Source of the DNA: Polaromonas sp. A23
GTDB taxonomy: Bacteria; Pseudomonadota; Gammaproteobacteria; Burkholderiales; Burkholderiaceae_C
Assembly: GCF_002001015.1 (NCBI RefSeq)
Contig: NZ_MUNO01000005.1
Span: 1-64,000 of the forward strand
Direction: 5' to 3'
Length of the DNA: 64,000 bases
The position numbers and the translations under genes are program-made. The notes beneath the pieces are model-generated. The model did no database searches. It saw nothing but the letters and a program-made list of their open reading frames with translations, and was not told the origin of the DNA. Shown here one piece after another: positions 14,675 through 16,692 of this stretch. Every line of letters starts with the position of its first letter. Positions within the stretch are counted from its first letter, which is position 1.

Positions 14675-14719
14675 TTGCGTTGCCGTGGCGCAGGTGTATA
14701 CTGTTTATTCATACAGTAT
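14675..14719 (+). promoter_or_regulatory. SOS (LexA) box overlapping a sigma-70 promoter
   Basis: CTGTTTATTCATACAG (14701-14716) is a CTG-N10-CAG LexA box, and the symmetry extends to ATA...TAT (14698-14719). A -35 TTGCGT (14675-14680) and -10 TATACT (14697-14702) with a 16-bp spacer overlap it, so LexA bound here would cover the -10. The ATG of the radical SAM gene is 15 nt downstream. This is a strong pattern match to the Gram-negative SOS consensus. Confidence 0.85.
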
Positions 14720-14730
14720 TCGAGAAACCC

Positions 14731-15819
14731 ATGTCCGAGGCCTTCATTCCGCTGCACGCCATCAAGGGCCGTGGAACGGCCACGCGACTGGCCCACCGCT
14801 TTACCAAGGATGTGCGCGATGCCTGGGACGACGGATGGGGGACGCTGGAGGACGCAGCCCTGGACGAAAAACCGCCCGAGACCGAAGTGACGTTCGAGGA
14901 TGCCCGCAGCGCCATCGCCCGCAACGATTCGCCCGACATTTATTTCGACTACTCAGTCAACCCCTACCGCGGTTGCGAGCACGGCTGTATCTACTGTTAC
15001 GCGCGGCCGACGCACAGCTACCTCAATCTCTCGCCAGGGTTGGACTTTGAAACAAGGCTCATCGCCAAGCGCAACATCGCTGCGGTGCTGCGTGCCGACC
15101 TGGCCAAAAGCAGCTACCTGCCCAAGCTGATCAACATCGGCTCGGCCACCGATTGTTATCAGCCGATCGAACGTGAATTGCGTCTGACGCGCGGCCTGAT
15201 CGAACTGATGCAGGAAGTGCGGCACCCGCTGGCATTGGTCACCAAGTCCAGCGGTGTGGAGCGCGACCTGGACCTGCTGGCGCCCATGGCCGCGGACAAG
15301 CTGGCCGCGGTATACGTGACCATCACCACGCTGGACGGCGAACTCGCCCGCAAGCTGGAGCCGCGCGCGGCCGCGCCGCACCGGCGCCTGCGCACCATCC
15401 GGGCGATGGCCGACGCCGGTATTCCCGTGGGTGTGAGTGTGGCCCCGCAGATTCCGTTTGTGAACGACGACATGGAGCAGGTGCTGCAGGCCGCCTTTGA
15501 GGCCGGCGCACGCACGGCGTTTTACACCGTGGTCCGCCTGCCCTGGGAAGTGGCGCCGCTGTTCAGACAGTGGCTGGCGCTGCATTACCCCCAGCGTGCG
15601 GACCGCATCATGGCGCGCATCCAGGAGATGCGCGGCGGCAAGGACTATGACAGTGACTTCGCCTCGCGCATGAAAGGCAGCGGTCTGTGGGCCGACCTGA
15701 TCAAGCAGCGTTTTGAGAAAACCTGCCATCGGCTGGGCCTGAACCGCCAGCGCACCGAGCTTGACTTCAGCCGGTTCACGCCGCCGGTGCGGCCTTCCGC
15801 GCAGGGCAGCCTCTTTTAG
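14731..15819 (+). CDS. PA0069-family radical SAM protein, SOS-regulated
   Basis: A 362-residue radical SAM protein. The cluster-binding motif is CEHGCIYC with Cys at about 82, 86 and 89, preceded by NPYRGC, as in the PA0069 / Rv2578c group related to spore photoproduct lyase-like enzymes. The start is the ATG at 14731, just after the LexA box; upstream in-frame codons would run through that operator. The Fe4S4 cluster and SAM would generate a 5'-deoxyadenosyl radical; the substrate is not known. I recall that PA0069 of Pseudomonas aeruginosa is in the LexA regulon, which agrees with the operator here. A DNA- or nucleotide-damage role is inferred. Confidence 0.92.
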   Translation: MSEAFIPLHAIKGRGTATRLAHRFTKDVRDAWDDGWGTLEDAALDEKPPETEVTFEDARSAIARNDSPDIYFDYSVNPYRGCEHGCIYCYARPTHSYLNLSPGLDFETRLIAKRNIAAVLRADLAKSSYLPKLINIGSATDCYQPIERELRLTRGLIELMQEVRHPLALVTKSSGVERDLDLLAPMAADKLAAVYVTITTLDGELARKLEPRAAAPHRRLRTIRAMADAGIPVGVSVAPQIPFVNDDMEQVLQAAFEAGARTAFYTVVRLPWEVAPLFRQWLALHYPQRADRIMARIQEMRGGKDYDSDFASRMKGSGLWADLIKQRFEKTCHRLGLNRQRTELDFSRFTPPVRPSAQGSLF

Positions 15820-15822
15820 CCG

Positions 15823-16692
15823 TCACTCCGACAGCTGACGCGCGTGGTGGTTCAGGTGGTCGGCGATGAAGGTGGCGATAAAGTAATAACCGTGGTCGTA
15901 ACCCGCATGCCGGCGCAGCTGAAGGGCCTGCCCGGCCTGGGCGCAAGCGGCTTCGAACAGCTGCGGGTGCAGTTGCTCGGCGAGGAATTTGTCGGCCAGG
16001 CCCTGGTCGATCAGGATGCCGTCCGGGTAGGGTGCGGCGTGCAGCGCAGCCATCAGGGCCGAGGCATCGTGTGCGGACCAAGTGGCGGTGTCGGTGCCCA
16101 GATAGCCGGTGAAGGCCTTGTGGCCCCACGGGCACTGGCTGGGCGCGCAGATGGGCGCAAAAGCCGAGACCGACTTGAAAAGGCCGGGGTGACGGAGCGC
16201 CAGCGTCAGCGCGCCATGACCACCCATTGAATGACCGAAGATGCCCACGCGGCCGGCATCGATGGGCAGGACGCCGGTCACGAGCGCGATCAGCTCCGTC
16301 GTGATGTAGCTCTCCATGCGGTAGTGCCGCGACCACGGGGCCTCTGTGGCGTCGAGGTAAAAGCCCGCACCGGCACCGAAATCCCAGCTCTCGGTTTCAC
16401 CGGGAATGTTCGCTCCGCGCGGGCTGGTGTCCGGGGCGATCAAAGCCAGGCCGAGTGTGGCGGCCAGCCGCTGGGCGCCTGCCTTGGTCATGAAGGTTTC
16501 TTCATTGCAAGTGAGGCCTGCCAGGTAGATCAGCGCGGGCACTTTGCCGCCGGCTTTCTCGATTACTGTTTGGGGCGGCATGAACACCGAAAACTTCATT
16601 GGCAAGCCGATGACACTGGAGGCGTGCTGGTAAAAGCGCTGCGCGCCGCCGAAGCAAGCGTGTTCGCTGAGAAGCTCGAACGGCGTGCTCAT
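15823..16692 (-). CDS. fghA: S-formylglutathione hydrolase
   Basis: A 289-residue serine esterase of the esterase D / FghA family. The nucleophile is Ser155 in GHSMGGHGA, the acid Asp is near 229-234, and the His is 267 in GYDHGYYF; the N-terminal EHACFGGAQRFYQH is characteristic. It hydrolyses S-formylglutathione to formate and glutathione, the last step of glutathione-dependent formaldehyde oxidation. It is the last gene of the long minus-strand operon, overlaps the preceding hydrolase gene by 4 bp, and ends 3 bp from the convergent radical SAM gene. Confidence 0.96.
   Translation of the reverse strand: MSTPFELLSEHACFGGAQRFYQHASSVIGLPMKFSVFMPPQTVIEKAGGKVPALIYLAGLTCNEETFMTKAGAQRLAATLGLALIAPDTSPRGANIPGETESWDFGAGAGFYLDATEAPWSRHYRMESYITTELIALVTGVLPIDAGRVGIFGHSMGGHGALTLALRHPGLFKSVSAFAPICAPSQCPWGHKAFTGYLGTDTATWSAHDASALMAALHAAPYPDGILIDQGLADKFLAEQLHPQLFEAACAQAGQALQLRRHAGYDHGYYFIATFIADHLNHHARQLSE

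Follow-up and report, generated by a model that had tools for sequence, protein, structure and literature searches.

SplB-like radical SAM genes have been linked to the SOS response more than once. LexA control of a gene named splB was predicted in 2012 by comparative genomics in Alphaproteobacteria and Betaproteobacteria, in a genome set that included Variovorax and Burkholderia; the control was interpreted there as photoreactivation, and the report states that the trait was not seen in Gammaproteobacteria (PMC3323433). A tie between such genes and SOS was drawn from gene neighborhood in 2013 (PMC3765255). Other studies describe a radical SAM gene as a core SOS member in Gram-positive bacteria and as part of the Balneolaeota LexA regulon, with binding assays (PMC7739468), find SplB-like genes in LexA regulons of Bacteroidetes (PMC8565304), and report a Streptomyces radical SAM gene bound by LexA (PMC9380542). 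In spore photoproduct lyase itself, the repair relay consists of C141 and Y99 in Bacillus numbering (PMC5368176). We found no SOS paper in full-text literature searches on PA0069 and Rv2578c, and the literature searched yielded no data on induction, footprints, or mutants, whether for the gene described below or for a close ortholog.

The gene lies in a stretch of 64,000 nucleotides from Polaromonas sp. A23, here called the window, and the coordinates of its features are collected in Table 1. Its product belongs to NCBIfam family NF033668 (rSAM_PA0069), scoring 462 bits where the cut-off is 360, with residues 12-362 aligned to profile positions 1-348; the PA0069-type identity assigned in a preliminary description, made from the sequence alone, is thereby upheld. 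The type protein of the family is PA0069 of Pseudomonas aeruginosa. The second-best NCBIfam match is the actinobacterial Rv2578c family (NF038135), at 204 bits over residues 50-292. Because this falls below that family's cut-off of 430, we treat it as a sister family; its LexA operator differs from that of the window gene. The match that follows is mobile-pair protein B. The three Cys residues of the cluster motif (C82, C86, and C89, in GCEHGCIYC) are invariant in 47 of 47 and in 81 of 81 aligned orthologs. The window gene ends 4 nt short of its neighbor (15823-16692), which is convergent, so the transcription unit is monocistronic and the gene is, as previously claimed, the only one behind its operator.

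That operator is a near-palindromic LexA box with the full CTGT-N8-ACAG core and both outer TA extensions; the sequence from 14697 to 14733 reads TATACTGTTTATTCATACAGTATTCGAGAAACCCATG. We scored it with a weight matrix built on a set of 17 E. coli SOS boxes, the identical matrix being used for all controls. The box reaches 25.6 bits and the runner-up place in the window 8.9. It also outscores the boxes, of the same type, of the genome's own lexA (21.6 and 20.8 bits) and recA (16.1 and 10.8 bits). While chance alone should yield the bare core about 0.6 times in 64 kb, a pattern search for the extended form, TACTGTN8ACAGTA, found four exact sites in the 4.58-Mb genome and none for the reversed control pattern. 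The other three all stand at gene starts, those of imuA (NF033429, 189 bits), radA (TIGR00416, 619 bits), and a gene that we take to be ORF6N-like, for which there was no NCBIfam match. The perfect box upstream of radA lies at C7:12408-12427, 10 nt from the ATG, and that of the ORF6N-like gene at C2:72084-72103. A second LexA-like S24 protein with a helix-turn-helix is encoded in the same genome (C15:32412-32783), without an E. coli-type box.

The preliminary description had placed this box, with its extended symmetry, over the -10 of a promoter 15 nt before the start codon. The box itself is confirmed, and the distance from its end to the ATG is 12 nt. Its overlap with a plausible TATACT also stands. 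Since the candidate -35 hexamer, separated from TATACT by a 16-nt spacer, is poor, and since a strict sigma-70 scan found no promoter, the promoter is to be read as plausible and its -35 and -10 as suggestions.

Table 1. Coordinates of features at the PA0069-type locus within the window.
Feature	Positions	Strand	Remarks
Possible -35 hexamer TTGCGT (weak)	14675..14680	+	Read from sequence
Possible -10 hexamer TATACT, partly within the LexA box	14697..14702	+	Read from sequence
LexA (SOS) box TACTGTTTATTCATACAGTA, extended consensus	14699..14718	.	25.6 bits; kept before orthologs
Possible ribosome-binding site GAGAA	14722..14726	+	Read from sequence
Gene, starting with ATG, of the 362-aa PA0069-family radical SAM protein	14731..15819	+	NF033668 462 bits, PF04055; start backed by orthologs
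Codons of CX3CX2C cluster motif C82-EHG-C86-IY-C89	14974..14997	+	Invariant in aligned orthologs
Codons of T140-D-C-Y-Q-P-I-E147, aligning beside the hydrogen-donor-Cys segment of the lyase	15148..15171	+	C142 not conserved
Codons of E210-P-R-A-A-A-P-H-R-R219, partly common to spore photoproduct lyase (EP...R)	15358..15387	+	

To survey LexA boxes ahead of orthologs, as the preliminary description had proposed, we scanned a stretch beginning about 220 nt before each matched start and ending just inside it, and used equally long segments of the same loci as controls. A site scoring 12 bits or more was present in 61 of 80 named orthologs and in 3 of 2131 control segments; the ortholog sequences share ancestry, so these counts are not independent events, and the change of operator between clades, described below, is the stronger argument. 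All Pseudomonas loci carry the box, nine of nine in the named set and five of five in a separate family sample, and PA0069 itself was reportedly placed in the LexA regulon of P. aeruginosa by Cirz et al. in 2006. Nearly all intact copies in Polaromonas likewise have it, with variation in its position and in the surrounding DNA. Eighteen of the 80 named orthologs lack an E. coli-type box, and in several families (e.g. loci L203, L205, L209, and L210) we saw no recognized operator.

The suggestion that LexA-type control extends from Betaproteobacteria to Pseudomonas is thus borne out by conserved SOS-type boxes. The view that this reveals a conserved role in DNA damage not yet assigned holds for the conserved SOS link; that link was already in the literature. 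The regulation is therefore not new, since SOS membership has been predicted in reports from 2012 onward. The gene called splB in PMC3323433 is, we infer, the NF033668 gene: both are SplB/COG1533 homologs behind LexA boxes of two clade types, in sets that include Comamonadaceae and Burkholderiaceae. What our sequence comparison adds, against the statement in that report, is that Gammaproteobacteria share the trait, because Pseudomonas and other gammaproteobacterial families carry E. coli-type boxes.

The family was found above cut-off in 205 of 397 sampled Pseudomonadota genomes, about half, and in 10 of 37 genomes of the window's genus. Being patchy within its own genus, the gene is not a core repair function. 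No neighbor kept across genera was found in the betaproteobacterial and gammaproteobacterial loci. We also considered spread by phages or plasmids and rejected it: phage matches to the protein are distant and partial radical SAM matches (27-37%), and plasmid matches covering at least 80% of the length are mostly to rhizobial, Paracoccus, and Azospirillum replicons of very large size, which sets the gene apart from typical mobile genes. Acidianus two-tailed viruses (KX607102.1, NC_007409.1, and others) encode a distant radical SAM relative, about 28% identical over 190 residues.

In other clades the gene stands behind other operators. The LexA motif of Alphaproteobacteria is GTTC-N7-GTTC, and it lies upstream of the gene in 30 of the 30 best alphaproteobacterial loci, against 1 of 328 control segments; 29 of these loci were scored at first, and the thirtieth was recovered after allowing for a contig edge. 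In a second sample, spread over families, it was present in 27 of 34 alphaproteobacterial loci. A third operator type appears in three loci of Gallionella-like genomes, in which a AGAACGWTCGTTCT-type palindrome precedes the PA0069-type gene. Sites of this type also precede recA (two genomes) and short lexA-like genes (three genomes), and further umuD, uvrD, a dinD-like gene, parE, and BRO-type genes, all named by eye from the sequence. These genomes (L136-L155; G049, G067, G068) thus appear to have an SOS operator of the AGAACGWTCGTTCT type together with a short lexA-like repressor. As the operator differs by clade and the gene stays behind it, the gene appears to have been retained in the damage regulon, under a third and probably a fourth type of operator that these comparisons would add to those already described.

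The candidate for the fourth type comes from Xanthomonadales (L246, L247-L306; G061-G066, G099, G158, G162, G248, G295, G405, G447, G504, G529, and G539). Orthologs there have no E. coli-type box, and nearly all have the element GTCGC-N5-CTGAGAC about 22 nt before the ATG. The exact element occurs 19 times in 13 genomes, against once for the reversed control. The excess is found mainly in two families and is near background elsewhere in Xanthomonadales, and many single sites are surely chance occurrences. Of the 13 sites that precede the PA0069-type gene, 12 are followed at exactly 10 nt by a hexamer of the form YANNNT or NANNST, as are 13 of 45 other sites; at other spacings the same hexamers were counted 0 to 6 times. 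Other genes behind the element are radA (two genomes), uvrA, the UDG-linked radical SAM gene of TIGR03916, a SymE-like gene, and a DEAH helicase gene, as well as nrdA, rmuC, and ssb, which were named by eye. From its sequence, GTCGC-N5-CTGAGAC-N10-YANNNT looks like a damage-type promoter with the element in the place of the -35; in the PafBC promoters of mycobacteria the regulatory element likewise occupies the -35 place. The motif possibly marks a DNA-damage regulon of a type other than that of LexA. The TIGR03916 family (rSAM_link_UDG) is another radical SAM family whose gene is tied to DNA-damage regulons (COG1573-COG4277, PMC8565304); it differs from the PA0069 family, and its partner is uracil-DNA glycosylase.

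The nature of the enzyme was approached through its fold. An AlphaFold model of the window protein has a mean pLDDT of 78 and is poor at residues 1-48 and 90-107. Its best six fold matches in the PDB are all spore photoproduct lyase, with E-values from 2e-7 to 1.4e-6, 16-18% identity, and moderate TM-scores of about 0.43-0.52. The lyase leads by one to two orders of magnitude over the other matches, which include NifB, SkfB, and further peptide and cofactor enzymes. At the level of sequence the resemblance is faint: a PDB search with the single protein returned nothing up to an E-value of 1, and a search with the family profile placed SkfB first (E-value 0.0009) and found no lyase chain at E-values up to 10.

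On the strength of the box and its conservation in three operator types, the family assignment, the cluster motif, the fold resemblance, and the absence of the lyase Cys discussed below, we estimate at roughly 60% the probability that the window gene encodes an SOS-induced SplB-like radical SAM enzyme for the reversal or modification of some DNA lesion distinct from the classical spore photoproduct. That PA0069-family proteins are DNA-damage enzymes we consider probable. The gene would constitute a single-gene SOS unit. LexA would bind the high-affinity box over the -10 and start region in vivo and block transcription; upon DNA damage, RecA-driven self-cleavage of LexA would free the promoter, as established LexA biology leads us to expect. 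As a radical SAM enzyme of the SplB-like group, to which the literature refers as COG1533, the product would draw on a [4Fe-4S] cluster together with S-adenosylmethionine to generate a 5'-deoxyadenosyl radical, and with it would most likely reverse or modify a damaged nucleobase in DNA.

The enzyme could instead be SOS-controlled and act on something other than DNA, modifying tRNA, protein, the nucleotide pool, or a peptide in a way that aids survival or a pause after damage. Radical SAM enzymes act on all such substrates, and the presence of NifB, SkfB, and other peptide and cofactor enzymes among the fold matches, with SkfB as the top match of the family profile, fits this explanation. We nevertheless hold it to be unlikely, though with an appreciable chance of being right, given the lead of spore photoproduct lyase in the fold search. 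Moreover, no peptide precursor or RiPP gene was seen adjoining the gene in the window, and outside Alphaproteobacteria the gene has no conserved neighbor, while the neighbor within that class is the gene of RNase HII.

It is improbable, in our judgment, that the protein is a true spore photoproduct lyase, induced by SOS for the repair of 5-thyminyl-5,6-dihydrothymine, as PMC3323433 puts forward for splB of Alphaproteobacteria and Betaproteobacteria. The scaffold does speak for such an enzyme. Apart from the radical SAM barrel and its six leading fold matches, an alignment to the Geobacillus lyase 4FHC pairs the three cluster Cys of CX3CX2C, Y88 with Y96 beside the cluster Cys, TK171-172 with TK173-174, EP210-211 with EP206-207, and R219 with R215; Y88 is invariant in the PA0069 family, and an AP motif is also common to both proteins. 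For this comparison we used 4FHC's own sequence, a Bacillus SplB query having served only to retrieve it. The catalytic residues do not follow the scaffold. At the hydrogen-donor Cys (C141 in Bacillus subtilis, C140 in Geobacillus) the matching family segment reads G-x-x-T-D-x-Y-Q-P, and among 47 aligned family members there is no invariant Cys outside the three of the cluster. The position of the relay Tyr (Y99 and Y98, respectively) is residue 90, which is Tyr in the window protein; across the family it is Phe in 29 of 47 members and Tyr in 18, so a relay Tyr is not a family requirement. The lyase model TIGR04070, which scores the 4FHC chain at 510 bits as a positive control, does not match the window protein at an E-value of 0.001. 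The lesion that dominates in spores is spore photoproduct, and the hosts of the PA0069 family considered here form no spores. Since the donor Cys is missing, the relay Tyr is not invariant, and neither TIGR04070 nor the profile search gave a match, the protein should not, on this sequence evidence, be filed as a spore photoproduct lyase in spite of its lyase-like scaffold, and the label "photolyase" for the family is weak. C142, within TDCYQP, was considered as a relocated hydrogen donor and rejected, being Cys in only 6 of 47 members.

As compared with the 2012 proposal, then, our analysis would add that the lyase label, and with it lyase chemistry, lacks support from the catalytic residues. 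Because the catalytic Cys and relay Tyr are not conserved, either the substrate or the radical-quenching step would differ from that of spore photoproduct lyase. A more specific version of our preferred reading, that of an enzyme acting on another DNA lesion, has in our estimate somewhat less than an even chance: the PA0069 family may form a class of its own among SOS-induced radical SAM enzymes of DNA repair, working on a non-spore-photoproduct lesion without a Cys hydrogen donor, whose damage control was kept through at least three operator changes (E. coli type, GTTCN7GTTC, and AGAACGWTCGTTCT) and, in Xanthomonadales, through the distinct GTCGC-N5-CTGAGAC-N10-YANNNT promoter that also stands before uvrA, radA, and further repair genes.

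In Alphaproteobacteria, rnhB, the gene of RNase HII and thus a neighbor from DNA repair, follows the PA0069-type gene in the same orientation in 29 of the 30 best loci, as it does in the two loci of this class in the named set, so that the order of LexA box, PA0069-type gene, and RNase HII gene is kept (L156-L185, L095, and L105). In locus L095 a CcrM-like methyltransferase gene comes after that of RNase HII. This arrangement could mean that the two enzymes act jointly on DNA containing ribonucleotides or oxidized sugars, with one LexA box serving both genes. Neither the window nor any of the other 78 named loci shows this adjacency, and where it occurs the two genes often stand several hundred bases apart, with a further gene in the gap, so we give joint action little credence. 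It is scarcely credible that the box is a chance match and that LexA does not control the gene: the bare core alone might well arise by chance in 64 kb, but the extended 20-mer occurs only at four gene starts in the genome and the site is conserved far above controls.

The enzyme matters beyond this locus. With about half of the sampled Pseudomonadota carrying it, and nearly every clade placing it behind a damage operator of its own, the comparative evidence for a role in repair or tolerance in non-sporulating bacteria is strong. Its present label rests on likeness to a spore enzyme, though the PA0069 family lacks the catalytic residues of that enzyme, and identification of the substrate would add a lesion to those that are reversed directly.

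An insertion of about 82 kb interrupts the PA0069-type gene of another Polaromonas genome just ahead of the codons for the cluster motif (G025, contig C28:179375-262822; L022, L025, L246, L307). The island end adjoining the N-terminal part encodes GmtY, GmtZ, and GmtX (464, 621, and 173 bits), so the element is a gamma-mobile-trio island that targets the PA0069-type SOS gene. The break in the gene of a second genome (G006, L023) falls almost at the same point, and the cargo there is similar. A Streptomyces phage integrates into the relative that belongs to the Rv2578c family (PMC12924846).
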